DNA of 5,679 nt from Desulfobacteraceae bacterium. GTDB lineage: Bacteria > Desulfobacterota > Desulfobacteria > Desulfobacterales > Desulfobacteraceae. Made by a program: the position numbers and the translations under genes. The number at the start of each line of letters is the position of its first letter. Positions within the stretch are counted from its first letter, which is position 1. The stretch covers positions 1-5,679 of the forward strand of contig PIVQ01000499.1 of the NCBI GenBank assembly GCA_003354055.1, written 5' to 3'. This document shows positions 1 through 5,679 of the stretch, in pieces. The notes below the pieces were generated by a model. The model was given only the letters and a program-made list of their open reading frames with translations. It was not told the DNA's origin and did not search any database.

Positions 1-3000
1 GAAATGCCGGGAGCTGCTCTGAAAATCTATGAGAGCCACCAGGCCCTGTTTAAAGGGGTGCAAAAAGGAGAGATCAAGGTCTTTATCTGTGATACCCCCA
101 CGGCACTGTACTTTCTGACAAAAAAACAACTCATCTCCCGGTACCGGTATCATCCCTCAAAACCTCTGTATCGCAAACCTTTTTTTGCTGCGGTACGGGA
201 AGGAAATCAATCCTTGATCCGGCTGATCAATGAGGGATTGGCCGTCATTTCCCCGGAAGAAAGGGCAGCCATTGAACGCCGATGGATGGGAACTGCGCCT
301 GAGTTGACACGTAATCAGGTCATCATCGGGGTCGACCAGTCATTTGCCCCATTCAGTATGCGGTCTGCCAATGGTGAACCTTCGGGGTTACTGGTGGACT
401 ATTGGCAGGCCTGGGCCCGTAAAACAGGACAGAATGCAGTCATTCGTCTTTATGAACGCCAGGAGGCTGTGAATGCATTAAAAGATGGGGTGATTGATAT
501 CCTGTCCACCTTTCCGTCCAGAAAGACAACCCAGGGGTGGGTGGGGTTTTCTGCGCCCTATTATCGACTTGACTGGTATCTGTATCAGCCCCTGAGCAGA
601 TACGGACAGGATATTTTTGAGATACATCCGGATACTGATTTTATCGATCTGACCATCGGGACATTGGAAAATTCCCGGATCCAGGAGTGGCTGGATGAAA
701 AGATGTACGGGCCGATGGTGATCGAATTTGACACAACGGAACAAATGATCATTGCAGCCGGCCAGTCACGCATAGACGGATTTCTTGCCACGCCCCAGGA
801 AATGGCAGTGCTGCCTGGGCAGATGGGGGTACCGGGAAGCTTTTCCAGAAGCCGTATCCCTGTATTGAAAATGACGGCAAGGGCAGGGGTCAGAAACTTT
901 AACCCCGGTTTGGTCGAGGCCATTGAATCAGGGTATAACCGGATGTCCCAGGTTGAAAAAGCCAGGATTGAGGCCAGGTGGATTTCCGAGCCTAAGCTGC
1001 GGGTGTATTCTCCGGGCAATAAATCCATTCAACTGTCTGATGACGAAGAAAAATGGCTTACAGAGTTAAAACTGGCCGGCACACCGATCAGGTTGGGGGT
1101 AGAGCCGGCATGGCCCCCCTTTGAATTCATGGGAGATACCCAAGAGTACCTGGGGATGGTCTCGGACATTGTGGGGATATTAAAATCACGATTGGGGATT
1201 TCCATTGATCTTGTATCTGATCCTTTAGCATCCGGAGTTGACGTGATTCCCGCAGCTTTTTCTTTTGAAGCCCATCGGAGTGCCATGGCTTACACCCGAC
1301 CCTATCTCAGCTTTCCCTGGGTTATTATCACCCGGACCCAGGCCCCTTTAATTACAGGGTTACTGGATATGAAGGATAAAATCCTGGCCTGTGACAATAA
1401 TTATGAATCTTTCAGGCGGTTGAAACAGGACTGGCCCAGGGTCCGTTTAATGGGGGTGGAATCCACCCATGAAGGGTTAAAGACGGTATTGTCCGGCAAG
1501 GCTGACGGGTATCTGGGAAATCTGGCACTTGCCGGATACCAGATCCAGGCGCATAATTACAACACTCTGAAGGTGGCGGCCGCCACAGCCATTGACAATG
1601 GCGGACTTGTATTTGCTGTACGAAAAGACTGGCCCGAACTGGTCAGCATTCTGAATAAAGGCATTGAATCCCTCACTTCTGACGAACTGGACCAGGTCCG
1701 CCAGAAGTGGTTTACAGTGCGGTTTGAGCAGAGTGCGGAAATGGCTGTTATAAGAAAAATGGCGTTGAGAATTTCTATTGGCGTACTTCTGGTTTTTATT
1801 CTGGTTTTGTTCTGGAACCGGATGATCCGGCGGCGGGAAGAACGATTCCGGTGTCTGACAGAGCATGGTACCGATATTATTCAGGCCTTTACCAGGGAGG
1901 GCAGGCTCGTCTATGTCAGCCCCTCTCATTCAACGGTATTAGGCTATCGGATAAAAAAGATCAAAAATCAAAGTGTATTTAATTACATTCATCCGAATGA
2001 TGTTCGAGAATTCCGGTTGATGCTTGATAAGTTGATTCAGACGGGAGGAACTGCCACCCATGTTTACCGGATACGGCATTTTCTCGGCCATGACCTGTTT
2101 TTTGAATCCCATTGCATGAATTTGCTTCATAACAGGGCCATCAAGGCCTTTGTTCTAAACAGCCGGGACATAACAGACCCGTTGAAGGCAAGAAAAGAGA
2201 TAGAACAGGCCAAGGAATCTGCCGAAGCTGCAAACCAGAGTAAAACCGATTTTCTGGCAGGTCTCAGTCATGAAGTCAGAACCCCGTTGAATGCCATTTT
2301 GGGGATGACAGAAATGACCCTGAATACCGATCTTACAAACCGGCAGAATAAAAATCTCACTGCCGTGTTTTCAGCTGCCAGGCACCTAAAAGCCGTTATC
2401 AGCGATATCCTTGATTTCTCCACCATTGAAGCCGGAAAGATGAAGATCCGCCAGAGAGAATTTCGTCTGGACCGGTTTCTGGAAAATCTCGACTATACCT
2501 GGCGATTTGAAGCGGAGAAAAAAGGCCTTCAATTCGATTTTAAGGTATCAGATAAAATTCCGGGACTGGTGAAATCCGACCCTGTCCGTTTGGGGCAGAT
2601 TCTTACCAATCTTTTGTCAAATGCCGTGAAATTTACCTTAAAGGGCAAGATCAGTTTCAGGACCGGTCTTCTCGACCTGCCTGAAAAGGGACGATCCGGG
2701 TCTTCCATGATGCTGTTTTTTGAGATTAAAGACACAGGCATTGGAATAGCTTCCGATCATACTGAGAAGATCTTCCAGCGGTTTACCCAGGCCCAGGGAT
2801 CCATCACCAGAGAATACGGCGGGACAGGTCTGGGGCTTGCCATTTGCAAAGAAATGGCCCAGCTCATGGGAGGAACCATTGAGGTCAAAAGTGAGCCGGG
2901 CAGGGGAAGCTGCTTCACCCTTAAACTTCCCTTTGTCTCCTTAGGCGATGAGGTGGAAAATCAGGGGCCGGGATCGACCGGTGAGCCTGCCATTGCCCCG

Positions 3001-3735
3001 GACCTGACCCTGCTTCTGGCTGAAGATGATCCTGTGAACCAGGCTGTGTTTAGGGAAATGCTTGACGCCTTTGGCTGCAGGGTGCTTCATGCCGGAGATG
3101 GTGAACAGGCATTGGCGCTTCTGAAGGAGAATGATATAGACATGGTCTTCATGGATATTGAGATGCCCCGTATGGACGGGTTGACTGCTTCCAGTCATAT
3201 CAGGCAGGGCCTGGCTGGAGAGAGGAATCGGGCAATACCTATTATTGCAATGACCGCCCATGTGCTGAAAGAATTCCGGTCTAAAACAAAATCCGTCGGC
3301 ATGGATGAGTTTATCCCCAAACCGATTGAACGCCGGGATCTCATCGAGATTATTACCCGGTATCAGCCTGACAGTAAACCTTCGACTAAAGATCCTTTGG
3401 TTGACAGGGCAAAAGCATTGGCATCCCTGGGAGGAAATGAGCAACTGCTGGAAACAGTGTATGGGATTTTTACGGCTGAAACTCCGGCCCTAATATCAAA
3501 TCTTGAATCTGCCTTAGAATCCGGTGATTTCAAAGCGATTGGCTTGGCTGCCCATACACTTAAGGGTGCCGGCGGCAGGGTATACTCGGAGCGCGCCGTT
3601 TTAGTTGCTGCCAGACTGGAAAGTACGGCAAAAAGCGATGATCCTGATATGACTATCGCTCATCAGGCAGGACAAGAGACTTTAAGGGTATTTGAAAACG
3701 TGATAGAGTGTCTTAAAAAAAAGCCACACCCATAA
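1..3735 (+). CDS. Hybrid sensor histidine kinase with tandem periplasmic solute-binding domains (BvgS/EvgS-like), 5' partial
   Basis: Membrane sensor kinase that senses a small molecule, probably an amino acid, through periplasmic domains and feeds a multi-step phosphorelay. Residues are counted from the ATG at base 4. Residues 1-96 are the second lobe of an SBP_bac_3 domain (DTPTALYFL, then an ERRWMG end). A second such domain spans about 104-326 and a third about 352-571. One membrane helix lies at 587-604, followed by a basic RRR stretch. PAS covers about 612-727. HisKA has the phosphorylated His756 in SHEVRTPLN. The HATPase has N873 (N box), DTGIGIA at 910 and GGTGLGLAI at 939. The receiver has Asp1051, with acidic E1007/D1008/D1009, T1084 and K1106. 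The Hpt has His1184 in AAHTLKG. The first solute-binding domain lacks its first lobe and codon 1-3 (GAA) is in frame, so the true start and signal peptide lie upstream and the ATG at 4 is internal. All catalytic residues are intact. Its regulator follows 12 bases downstream. Confidence 0.95.
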
Positions 3736-3747
3736 TCGAGACGGAAA

Positions 3748-5154
3748 ATGAAATCCATACCTGAACGAAAAACACCCATTCTTATAGTTGATGATGATAC
3801 AGGTTTTCTGCTGACCATCAGGGAAATTCTGGTATCGGCGGGTATGCCCGAGCCCGCACTTGTGTCGGACAGCCGTGACGTCATGGCGCTGTTAAGGGAA
3901 CACCGGTTTAAATTTGTTTTGCTTGATCTGCTGATGCCCCATTTATCAGGAATGGATCTGTTGAGTCAGATCAAGGAAGAATTCTACGACACCGAATGCG
4001 TTATGGTTACGGCCAGTGATGATATTGCCACTGCCGTGTCTGCTATGAAAGACGGGGCCTATGATTATCTGACCAAGCCGGTGCAATATGAGAAGCTGGT
4101 CATTCTTATTCAGCGGGCATTGGAAAGGTATTGCTTGCGTCAGGGACTGTCCTTGTATGAGCGGAAAAATACCCGGGCCGATCTGGCAGATCCGTCTGCC
4201 TTCTCCGACATGGTGGCCATGGACCATGCTATCATCCGGGTGCTTCGCCAGGTTGAAATGGTTGCCCCTACGGAATATTCTGTGGTCATCACAGGGGAAT
4301 CCGGCACCGGCAAAGAGATGCTGGCCAGAAAGATACATGAACTGAGCAATAGATCCGAAGGCCCGTTTGTTGCCCTGAACATGGGGGCGGTGAGCGAGAG
4401 TTTGTTCACAGATGAACTGTTCGGCCATGCAAAAGGGGCCTATACCGGTGCTTCAAAGGAAAGAAGGGGTTTTTTCGAATCCGCACGCGGCGGTACTCTG
4501 TTTCTGGATGAAATCACGGATCTTGATATTACCCTCCAGGCCGGATTGTTGAGGGTGATTCAGGAAAAAGAGTATTACCGGGTGGGCAGCACCCGAAGCC
4601 GTGATGTCGATGTGCGTATTCTTGTGGCTACAAACAGGGACATATTCGAGGAAATCAAACAAAAACGATTCCGGGAAGACCTGTTTCACCGTTTGAACAT
4701 GTTCCATATTGACATCCCGCCTCTGCGTGAAAGACGAGGGGACATTCTGCCACTGGCCCACTTGTTCCTGACCCAGTATACCAAGGAGACAATGAAGAAA
4801 ATTACAAATGTTTCCACTGATTTTTCAGCATATTTAATGGAACAGGATTATCCCGGTAATATCAGGGAATTGAAAAACATGATTGCATCTGCCGTTCTCA
4901 GGGAAAAGACGGATACCCTTAGCTTAACCTCTCTTACCCTGACATCTCAACAGGATATTTTCGCTTCCTCTGATTCCCTGAACGAAGATCGTTCCCTGTG
5001 GCGGCTTGACCAGGTGGAGCAGGATCACATCCTCAAAGTACTGGCGAAAACCGACGATAACCGGACCCAGGCAGCTAAAATTCTGGGTATTGGCCGCAAA
5101 ACCCTGCTTCGCAAATTAAAATCCTACGCGTCCGTTGCTGTCGCAGACAGATAG
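3748..5154 (+). CDS. Sigma-54-dependent NtrC-family response regulator
   Basis: Cytoplasmic transcription activator of 468 residues, the normal length for NtrC-type regulators. The receiver (about 10-122) has acidic D15/D16/D17, phosphorylated Asp60, T88 and K110. The AAA+ domain (about 152-385) has Walker A GESGTGKE at 183-190, the sigma-54 contact loop GAYTGA at 230-235 (Tyr in place of the commoner Phe), Walker B with D254/E255, arginine-finger region RFREDLFHRLN at 307-317, and YPGNIREL with sensor-II R373. A Fis-type helix-turn-helix lies at about 425-460 (NRTQAAKILGIGRKTLLRKL). ATP hydrolysis by this domain opens sigma-54 polymerase bound at -24/-12 promoters. The gene starts 12 bases after the kinase stop, so the two are almost surely co-transcribed and paired. 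The ATG at 3748 is preceded only by a weak purine-rich GAGACGGAAA (3738-3747), which hints at coupling with the kinase. The likely target is the symporter gene downstream, whose upstream region carries sigma-54-type control sites. Confidence 0.96.
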   Translation: MKSIPERKTPILIVDDDTGFLLTIREILVSAGMPEPALVSDSRDVMALLREHRFKFVLLDLLMPHLSGMDLLSQIKEEFYDTECVMVTASDDIATAVSAMKDGAYDYLTKPVQYEKLVILIQRALERYCLRQGLSLYERKNTRADLADPSAFSDMVAMDHAIIRVLRQVEMVAPTEYSVVITGESGTGKEMLARKIHELSNRSEGPFVALNMGAVSESLFTDELFGHAKGAYTGASKERRGFFESARGGTLFLDEITDLDITLQAGLLRVIQEKEYYRVGSTRSRDVDVRILVATNRDIFEEIKQKRFREDLFHRLNMFHIDIPPLRERRGDILPLAHLFLTQYTKETMKKITNVSTDFSAYLMEQDYPGNIRELKNMIASAVLREKTDTLSLTSLTLTSQQDIFASSDSLNEDRSLWRLDQVEQDHILKVLAKTDDNRTQAAKILGIGRKTLLRKLKSYASVAVADR

Positions 5155-5169
5155 CGGGCAATGGCGAAC

Positions 5170-5186
5170 TGTGTCAAAATGACCCG
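5170..5186 (+). promoter_or_regulatory. Putative upstream activator site 1 (17-bp, 7-3-7 inverted repeat)
   Basis: Reads TGTGTCA-AAA-TGACCCG: two imperfectly inverted 7-base arms around a 3-base spacer. It matches site 3, read on the opposite strand, at 15 of 17 positions. Its centre (5178) is about 255 bases upstream of the predicted symporter start point, within the range for sigma-54 enhancer sites. That the adjacent NtrC-type regulator binds here is an inference from position and symmetry. Confidence 0.65.
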
Positions 5187-5188
5187 GC

Positions 5189-5205
5189 TGGGTTGTTTTG
5201 ACACA
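5189..5205 (-). promoter_or_regulatory. Putative upstream activator site 2
   Basis: On the + strand TGGGTTG-TTT-TGACACA. On the minus strand it reads TGTGTCA-AAA-CAACCCA, which matches site 1 at 14 of 17 positions. Its centre is 19 bp from that of site 1, about two helical turns, which would suit side-by-side binding of two regulator dimers. The sites lie in opposite orientation with 2 bases between them. The left arm is the most divergent of the six arms. Confidence 0.6.
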
Positions 5206-5279
5206 TTAACCCTGAAAACCTTGACTTACGCCTCTTTTTCTCTTGATTTTTTCCATCACTCCTGCTCAAAAATAATGAT

Positions 5280-5296
5280 CGGGTCATAATGACACA
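5280..5296 (-). promoter_or_regulatory. Putative upstream activator site 3
   Basis: On the + strand CGGGTCA-TAA-TGACACA, with GTCATAATGAC as a perfect palindrome at the core. It repeats site 1 in inverted orientation with only the spacer differing (15 of 17). All three sites share one exact TGACACA arm and one weaker TGACCCG-like arm. The centre lies about 145 bases before the predicted start point, the usual distance for a sigma-54 enhancer. It sits in non-coding DNA, so coding constraint cannot explain the repeat. Confidence 0.65.
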
Positions 5297-5369
5297 GTTG
5301 ACTCCAGGCCCGATGCTCTCTGAATCTTGAATTCTGAATTTATTACTGTTCTAAGTAGCTGAATTTTAT

Positions 5370-5382
5370 TAATTATTTGATG
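5370..5382 (-). promoter_or_regulatory. Possible IHF-binding site
   Basis: The + strand TAATTATTTGATG corresponds on the minus strand to the IHF consensus WATCAANNNNTTR with one mismatch, at the outermost base. It lies between operator 3 and the -24/-12 element, where IHF usually bends DNA to bring an activator to sigma-54 polymerase. In AT-rich DNA such a match can arise by chance, so position is the main support. Confidence 0.4.
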
Positions 5383-5406
5383 GTGTTTCTGTCAAGTAAT
5401 ACAGCG

Positions 5407-5422
5407 TGGCATATTTTGTGTA
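5407..5422 (+). promoter_or_regulatory. Candidate sigma-54 (-24/-12) promoter of the symporter gene
   Basis: TGGCA at 5407-5411 matches the -24 element. TGTA at 5419-5422 stands in for the -12 element (consensus TTGCA, here GTGTA from 5418). The GG at 5408-5409 is exactly 10 bases from the G at 5420, the required spacing, but the following C is replaced by T. Predicted start is near 5433, giving a leader of about 113 bases. I found no better-spaced sigma-70 promoter between here and the gene. The operators upstream and a sigma-54 activator gene next door raise confidence in a weak match. Confidence 0.55.
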
Positions 5423-5432
5423 ATGAACACAT

Positions 5433-5545
5433 CTATGCTTATATATACGGCTGCACCGTAACCCGGACCAGGTGGTTTGGGATCCCCCCGGAGATATCCG
5501 GGCAGGGGGGCAGTCAACACAAATTAATTATATAAAGGAGCACAA
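5433..5545 (+). promoter_or_regulatory. Structured 5' leader of the symporter gene with three tandem hairpins
   Basis: Three hairpins follow with 1-2 base gaps. The first pairs TACGG (5446-5450) with CCGTA (5456-5460) around CTGCA. The second pairs CCCGGACC (5462-5469) with GGTTTGGG (5474-5481), including two G-U pairs, around AGGT. The third pairs CCCGGA (5487-5492) with TCCGGG (5497-5502) around GATA, extended by CCC (5484-5486) with GGG (5505-5507) past a 2-base bulge. No T-run follows, so it is not an intrinsic terminator. The segment does not show glycine riboswitch core sequences. Its role is unknown: RNA stability, translation control or an unrecognised regulatory RNA are all open. Confidence 0.5.
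5534..5540 (+). promoter_or_regulatory. Ribosome binding site of the symporter gene
   Basis: AAAGGAG lies 5 bases before the ATG at 5546, a strong Shine-Dalgarno match in an unpaired AT-rich stretch downstream of the leader hairpins. It fixes the start codon. It is much stronger than the site before the regulator gene. Confidence 0.85.
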
Positions 5546-5679
5546 ATGGAACTTTTAAACTTAGTGGTGGGTAAAGTCGGCAGTTTTGCCTGGGGACCCA
5601 TCATGATTTTCTTTTTGGTTGGTACAGGAGTATATCTCACCTTTGGGACCCGAGTGGTCCAGTTCAGAAAACTGTTTTA
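5546..5679 (+). CDS. Sodium:alanine/glycine symporter, AGCS family, 3' partial
   Basis: Inner-membrane carrier that takes up alanine, glycine or a related amino acid with sodium. Only the first 44 codons are present, while family members usually run to about 450-500 residues. The visible part shows the typical AGCS N-terminus: a short amphipathic start, AWGP at 15-18, a first membrane helix at about 18-32 (IMIFFLVGTGVYLTF), then the family pattern GTGxYLT followed by VVQFRKLF at 37-44. The start is set by the AAAGGAG site. The gene sits downstream of a sensor-regulator pair and a sigma-54-type control region, so its expression probably depends on that system. The exact substrate cannot be read from this fragment. 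I call the family by recognising the pattern; the absence of the sodium-site helices leaves some doubt. Confidence 0.82.
   Translation, partial: MELLNLVVGKVGSFAWGPIMIFFLVGTGVYLTFGTRVVQFRKLF

Follow-up and report, generated by a model that had tools for sequence, protein, structure and literature searches.

Activators of sigma-54-dependent transcription bind upstream sites as dimers, form oligomers, loop the DNA and drive promoter opening with ATP. The E. coli NtrC box, TGCACCA-N3-TGGTGCA, is a 17-bp 7-3-7 inverted repeat with a CA-N3-TG core, and NtrC itself is a receiver-AAA+-Fis HTH protein of sigma-54 promoters, as described in the parts of the source compared (PMC8743547). The NorR enhancer of norVW has three sites, all of which are required, with a hexamer formed from site-bound dimers, and NorR is activated directly by NO (PMC4987338, in part). 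In Desulfovibrio vulgaris, the regulator genes of response-regulator sigma-54 regulons lie beside their target promoters, the regulons mostly comprise one to four operons, and the sites are mostly inverted repeats with 4-6 bp arms 3-8 bp apart, some motif groups having TGT/ACA half-sites 9, 11 or 12 bp apart (the parts compared of PMC3333781 and PMC4641369). For DVU0569, the same excerpts place a sigma-54 promoter 3' of its own gene, upstream of alanine dehydrogenase. D. vulgaris belongs to another order of bacteria; no AGCS target is named in the parts of these two papers that were compared, the motif logos lying outside the comparison, and the "symporter" passage of PMC4641369 concerns a different transporter. 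Desulfobacteria are reported to be the richest in NtrC-type regulators, a single genome having as many as 69 (PMC12316311, in part). Judging from the excerpted sources, both the approach and the setting already have precedents in Desulfovibrio. Among the literature matches listed, no description of a regulator/three-site/AGCS system was found in titles and abstract openings.

We analyzed a 5,679-nucleotide stretch of DNA from a Desulfobacteraceae bacterium, referred to as the window, in which three inverted repeats lie between a response regulator gene and a symporter gene. From comparison with related genomes, the repeats are very probably the dimer-binding enhancer sites of the regulator at 3748-5154, which would drive the AGCS symporter from a promoter at 5407. 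A preliminary description had regarded them as a new operator family, which we do not uphold: the NtrC box has this same 7-3-7 form and CA-N3-TG core (in the part of PMC8743547 compared), and the element is a well-conserved example of a known switch type. Unlike the NtrC box, the sites here have the arm YGKGTCA, number three in a fixed order and serve a small local set of amino-acid uptake genes; in being three, the sites resemble those of NorR, but the regulator has a receiver domain, and two of the sites stand in tandem at a step of 19 bp with the third at a distance. The D. vulgaris spacing TGT-N11-ACA fits TGTGTCA-N3-TGACACA. An orphan NtrC-type system of sulfate-reducer-type bacteria thereby gains a site, a promoter and targets, and the case is compact enough (a regulator, three sites and one or two amino-acid transporters) for helix-to-site specificity and the use of the third site to be directly testable.

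Genes and repeats of the window

All three genes of the window lie on the + strand. A hybrid histidine kinase gene (1 to 3735, its 5' end beyond the window) encodes SBP_bac_3 sensor domains, PAS, HisKA, HATPase, receiver and Hpt, and is followed by the response regulator gene (3748 to 5154; receiver, sigma-54 AAA+ and Fis-type HTH). After a gap of 391 bp come the first 44 codons of the symporter gene (5546 to 5679), which runs off the window and is preceded by AAGGAG (5535 to 5540, + strand), its likely ribosome-binding sequence. This short copy is judged to be AGCS from the likeness of its N-terminus to the AGCS genes that follow the regulator in genomes G001, G002, G011 and G045; PF01235 and TIGR00835 were matched by the full G002 orthologue and by a G002 paralogue in trans. 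The regulator scored above the cut-offs of PF00072, PF00158 and PF02954, its translation has the Walker A motif GESGTGKE and the loop GAYTGA (a Tyr variant of GAFTGA), and its residues 10-461 align with Aquifex NtrC1 (4l4u), which has GAFTGA at the loop. By these features of its translation, it is an NtrC-type sigma-54 enhancer-binding response regulator. The names NtrC, AtoC and ZraR do not extend to it, as it scored below every NCBIfam equivalog cut-off among the best 25 of 117 matching families, including the best, TIGR02915 (365.8 vs 502.6), and ntrC (357.2 vs 558.6). Its closest relative in the genome scan, at 92% identity, was in a Desulfobacterales MAG (L001, in G001).

The three 17-bp 7-3-7 repeats were found where they had been reported: (i) site 1, TGTGTCA-AAA-TGACCCG (5170 to 5186), starting 16 bases past the last base of the regulator stop codon; (ii) site 2, TGGGTTG-TTT-TGACACA (5189 to 5205, inverted), starting 19 bp after the start of site 1 and forming a tandem pair with it; and (iii) site 3, CGGGTCA-TAA-TGACACA (5280 to 5296, inverted). 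Their claimed agreement at 14-15 of 17 positions applies to copies 2 and 3 against copy 1 (14 and 15, respectively), while between copies 2 and 3 only 12 of the 17 positions match. The centers of sites 3, 2 and 1 lie 120, 211 and 230 bp above the -24 GG of the promoter, an NtrC-box-like architecture of 17-bp 7-3-7 dyads at least 100 bp upstream. The preliminary description had spoken of paired enhancer sites; the pair exists, but the full layout is a pair plus a third. With up to three mismatches, TGTGTCANNNTGACMCR gave eight strand matches in the window vs 1.25 expected (0 of 200 shuffles reached eight), an excess that is overstated because the three near-palindromes, each counted once per strand, make up six of the eight. 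When scored with a matrix built from other genomes only, the three sites (24.6, 17.3 and 25.0) were the top 17-mers of the region, with the fourth-best at 0.7 vs 17.3 for the third. Of 2,000 shuffles of the region, none contained a 17-mer as high as the top score, three contained one as high as the weakest, and none had a third-best 17-mer as high as the window's. The three repeats are real and go well beyond what chance would give. A 17-mer at 1318 of the window, inside the kinase gene, also scored 16.6, and good matches to the site within mechanical ORFs or the kinase gene were seen in L112 at 3840 (19.2) and L097 at 9884 (18.8).

The repeats at 5170-5205 could also be read as an RNA hairpin, acting as an intrinsic terminator for the regulator gene or as an RNA element of another kind, since their arms (5170-5185 and 5190-5205) are 88% complementary and 4 nt apart, and the 5150-5320 region gave a better fold than shuffled versions of it (z = -3.21; 2 of 200 as good). 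Such pairing is, however, expected of any tandem near-palindromes, and in the predicted fold site 1 is paired to site 3, with no local terminator stem. No terminator-like site was detected in 5100-5600 and no Rfam match in the window; moreover, site 3 is conserved alone, and the copies found in trans stand single or in twos upstream of another gene. Terminator, riboswitch and Rfam readings were thus unsupported by the fold, the terminator scan and Rfam, and we consider an RNA element very improbable.

Promoter and IHF-like sequence

Downstream of the repeats, where a sigma-54-type promoter had been proposed, TGGCATATTTTGTGT (5407 to 5421, + strand) has its -24 GG at 5408-5409 and a -12 box of GTGT instead of TTGC. 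The proposal is borne out by the -24 box, the spacing, the conservation and the activator type, all of which point to a sigma-54-type promoter, with the -12 box being unusual. In the relatives, the promoter takes the form (T/C)GGCA(C/T)-N5-(G/A)TG. When 12 promoters were compared (those of ten loci and two trans copies), every one had GGCA followed by a -12 TG at sigma-54 spacing and none had TTGC at -12 (GTGT in 8, GTGA in 2, ATGT in 1 and GTGC in 1); the box is nonetheless conserved across genomes. The Desulfovibrionales consensus is given as tGGcacg and tTGCt (PMC4641369, in part). A scan with TGGC-N7-TTGCW at one mismatch returned three matches elsewhere and missed the 5407 promoter because its -12 box is GTGT. 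The sigma-54 domain PF04552 (rpoN) was present in the genomes of all nine relatives described below.

Between the third site and the promoter, an IHF-like sequence, TAAGTAGCTGAAT (5352 to 5364, - strand), is predicted, with one mismatch to WATCARNNNNTTR and its center 50 bp above the -24 GG; the consensus was taken as printed in the part of PMC3897727 compared (WATCARxxxxTTR). The window has two more matches with a single mismatch, at 32 and 35 bp above the GG. In this interval, WATCARNNNNTTR was exact in five of the ten loci, always on the - strand and centered 47-50 bp above the GG, and occurred with one mismatch in the window (50 bp) and G016 (47 bp); no match within one mismatch was found there in G002, G003 or G078. 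These counts, 5 of 10 exact vs 0.15 expected and 7 of 10 within one mismatch vs 2.7, are post hoc because the idea arose from inspecting several sequences first. The stricter WATCAANNNNTTR was exact in 1 of 10 (equaled by 98 of 1,000 shuffle sets) and within one mismatch in 6 of 10 vs 2.0, and the control, the shorter spacer between pair and third site, had WATCARNNNNTTR in 1 of 10. At the trans promoters, WATCARNNNNTTR was exact at 23 bp (G002) and found with one mismatch at 46 and 26 bp (G001). The orp promoters of D. vulgaris likewise have IHF sites between the activator sites and the sigma-54 promoter, and of the candidates at -42, -79 and -43 two are functional, according to the part of the source compared (PMC3897727); unlike those, the IHF sites here are predicted and occur in only part of the loci.

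If the repeats are enhancer sites of the regulator, the switch may operate as follows. Stimulation of the hybrid kinase through its amino-acid-binding-type sensor domains would send phosphate via receiver and Hpt to the regulator, whose dimers would occupy the tandem pair and the third site and come together as an AAA+ hexamer. The hexamer would then contact sigma-54 RNA polymerase at 5407 across DNA that is bent, possibly by IHF near 5358, leading to transcription of the AGCS symporter; in some relatives, a second AGCS gene elsewhere may also be switched on. The SBP_bac_3 domains and the transporters point to an amino acid as the signal.

Conservation of the layout with the regulator

Genome comparison shows the sites, their spacing and the promoter to be conserved and to co-occur with the regulator. 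A search of 145 relatives of G002 identified regulator matches in 18 genomes at E <= 1e-110. Nine of these (G001, G002, G003, G011, G016, G041, G045, G077 and G078) carry an orthologue at 68-92% identity, while the other nine, along with a second gene of G001, were at 52-58%. When 389 genomes drawn from the order were searched at E <= 1e-170, one further genome was found, G259, at 60%; matches below 68% (L004, L068-L078) were not counted as orthologues. The layout of pair, third site and promoter was present in nine of nine relatives with the orthologue, in keeping with the preliminary description, which had tied its reading to the repeats being kept wherever the regulator is retained. Across the ten loci (the window and the nine relatives), the pair lies at the regulator gene end with a step of 19 bp (18 in G003), the second and third sites start 87-93 bp apart (70 in G011 and 80 in G077), and the promoter GG, which was sought 180-300 bases past the stop codon, falls 109-122 bp past the third-site center. 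In G078, the first site spans the regulator stop codon. By leave-one-genome-out scoring, the top site of each of the ten loci was reached in 0 of 2,000 shuffles. The weakest was site 2 of G016 (9.2), matched by the best shuffled 17-mer in 25 of 2,000. A helical phasing of the pair-to-third distance (resultant 0.62 over ten loci at 10.5 bp) was set aside because the loci are related.

The kinase, with SBP_bac_3, HisKA, receiver and Hpt, was confirmed by Pfam in G041 and G016, and a long upstream ORF was noted in the other relatives. In G016 (L094 6033-12999), a Mutator-family transposase ORF (7434-8645) lies between the kinase and the regulator, whose ORF is N-terminally truncated and lacks the first ~58 residues. 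L094 also has a DDE transposase ORF (1078-2298) and a look-alike (3074-4294), and its sites 1 and 3 are still well preserved.

Site sequences were compared in a set of 31 from the ten loci, which includes a fourth site of G001 and leaves out an extra, weaker site of G002 at -9 (score 15.7). The consensus is [CT]G[GT]GTCA-N3-TGAC[CA]C[AG], with the arm YGKGTCA and not the TGCACCA of the NtrC box proper. Positions 2, 12 and 14 are invariant, positions 8 and 9 hold only A or T, and at position 3 there are 23 G, 7 T and 1 C. The earlier statement that each copy has one exact TGACACA arm and one weaker arm is not general, the "weaker" CGGGTCA/TGACCCG being the commoner in relatives. Two G001 contigs, C360 and C6 (L092 and L059), represent the same locus and overlap but differ in letters (site 1 is TGTGTCA..CCCA in one vs TGTATCA..CCCG in the other); these are probably strain variants.

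Target genes, distribution of the sites and sister regulators

The gene after the regulator was found to be AGCS in the window and in eight of the nine relatives. The exception was G077, where a LivK-type binding protein (PF13458) and then a branched-chain-type permease follow, with like sites and promoter; thus, the sites and promoter appear to stay with the regulator while the transporter is swapped within the amino-acid class. With the G002 AGCS protein as query (13 of 145 genomes at E <= 1e-140), sites were identified upstream of AGCS in all five genomes with the regulator (G001, G002, G011, G041 and G045) and in none of the eight without a regulator match (G007, G012, G017, G125, G026, G039, G132 and G061), where absence refers to a cut-off of E <= 1e-110 and to the scoring of 11 candidates in each genome listed. 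The ~700 bases upstream in these eight contained one 11-of-14 consensus match in G007 and zero in the other seven. This association has a Fisher P of 0.0008, kinship not being corrected, and G007, G012 and G017 are similar enough that they may amount to a single case. The assignment of the repeats to the regulator at 3748-5154, made in the preliminary description from the window, is therefore strengthened, as the sites track the orthologue (9 of 9 with it, 0 of 8 symporters without the regulator).

Genome-wide, GGGTCANNNTGACMC with no mismatch gave 53 strand matches in the nine genomes vs 6 for a backward control. Beyond the main locus, the perfect matches fell at 22 places, all of which were read: 20 lie within mechanical ORFs of at least 150 aa, and two are intergenic (G001:C64 and G002:C23), each upstream of a second AGCS gene with a similar promoter. 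Scattering of the motif across the genome, raised earlier as a sign against an operator, was accordingly not observed. In G001:C64, the start of the site precedes the promoter TGGCACGGTTTGTGT by 126 bp, and a neighboring site lies 103 bp from that promoter; the core-perfect site scored only 11.7 because of its GGG center, which is absent from the 31 sites, and the neighbor scored 15.4. In G002:C23, the site scored 26.4 and the promoter TGGCACACTTTGTGT lies 104 bp after its start. The second-AGCS type is the gene directly after the regulator in G003, G016 and G078 (86-89% identity), and the like copy of G011 (L137, 85%) had no site upstream; this reading left out the AGCS-like L143, L146 (G045) and L147 (G001) and the fragment L145. 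The tandem-pair pattern at one mismatch was found in 7 of 145 genomes, five at the orthologous locus, vs 2 of 145 for the backward control; the G034 and G099 matches are on one strand only, with matrix scores never above 8.1, and G003, G016, G077 and G078 escape the pattern, owing either to the 18-bp step or to two or more mismatches.

Mobile or repetitive extragenic palindromes, or chance, would also yield repeats that are inverted, multiple and intergenic, and the loose core at one mismatch was commoner than its backward control in G001, G002 and G003 (87-160 vs 30-40 strand matches per genome), a count too permissive to separate a regulon from background. Perfect matches outside the main locus are nonetheless few, with most in ORFs as given above, and the place and the step of 18-19 bp are fixed in ten of ten loci; we find this origin scarcely credible.

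The sites could instead be owned by another DNA-binding protein, such as a sister NtrC-type regulator in the same cell. Sister regulators at 52-60% identity exist, one of them in G001 (L077), and have GYCA-N3-TGRC sites past their own stop codons. Ten sister genes were read in this region (L068-L075, L077 and L078), L076 being left out as it lacks the regulator C-terminus. Four (L072, L075, L077 and L078) have the recognition helix GIGLRT, vs GIGRKT in the ten orthologous loci. Site starts were at -12, +7 and +66 in L077, at -12, +8 and +77 in L072, and at +9, +29 and +100 in L078. Their arms include CACGTCA, TGCGCCA and CATGCCA, and sigma-54-like sequences follow downstream. In L075, the sites were less regular and no promoter was found, and the six sisters with TTVYRKI-like helices had no site in the scan past the stop codon. 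The sister arms (~YRCGYCA) differ, however, from YGKGTCA, the sister sites adjoin their own regulators, and YGKGTCA-type sites are present where the orthologue is present, so that ownership by another protein seems improbable to us, and the regulator at 3748-5154 is retained as the probable owner.

That the recognition helix and the arm change together is a lead from the sequences of the two clades. Tentatively, and with the balance of probability against it, we propose a specificity series (GIGRKT/YGKGTCA to GIGLRT/~YRCGYCA) in which the pair plus one would seat three dimers for one AAA+ hexamer and GTGT would mark an activator-tuned sigma-54 promoter. Within such a series, tandem sites at the stop codon, a downstream third site and a sigma-54-like promoter appear to be retained in both clades.

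In G026 and G039, TGGCACC-N4-TTGCT and TGGCGCT-N4-TTGCA, respectively, lie upstream of AGCS without the 17-bp sites, which suggests that these promoters use another activator. The AGCS orthologues of G007, G012 and G017 (L124-L126) have a TTGACA-like sequence upstream, read by eye, suggesting an ordinary promoter. The other AGCS gene of G011 is preceded by two tandem glycine riboswitch aptamers (RF00504; L140 1108-1318), and different switches thus appear to serve the AGCS paralogues of one cell.
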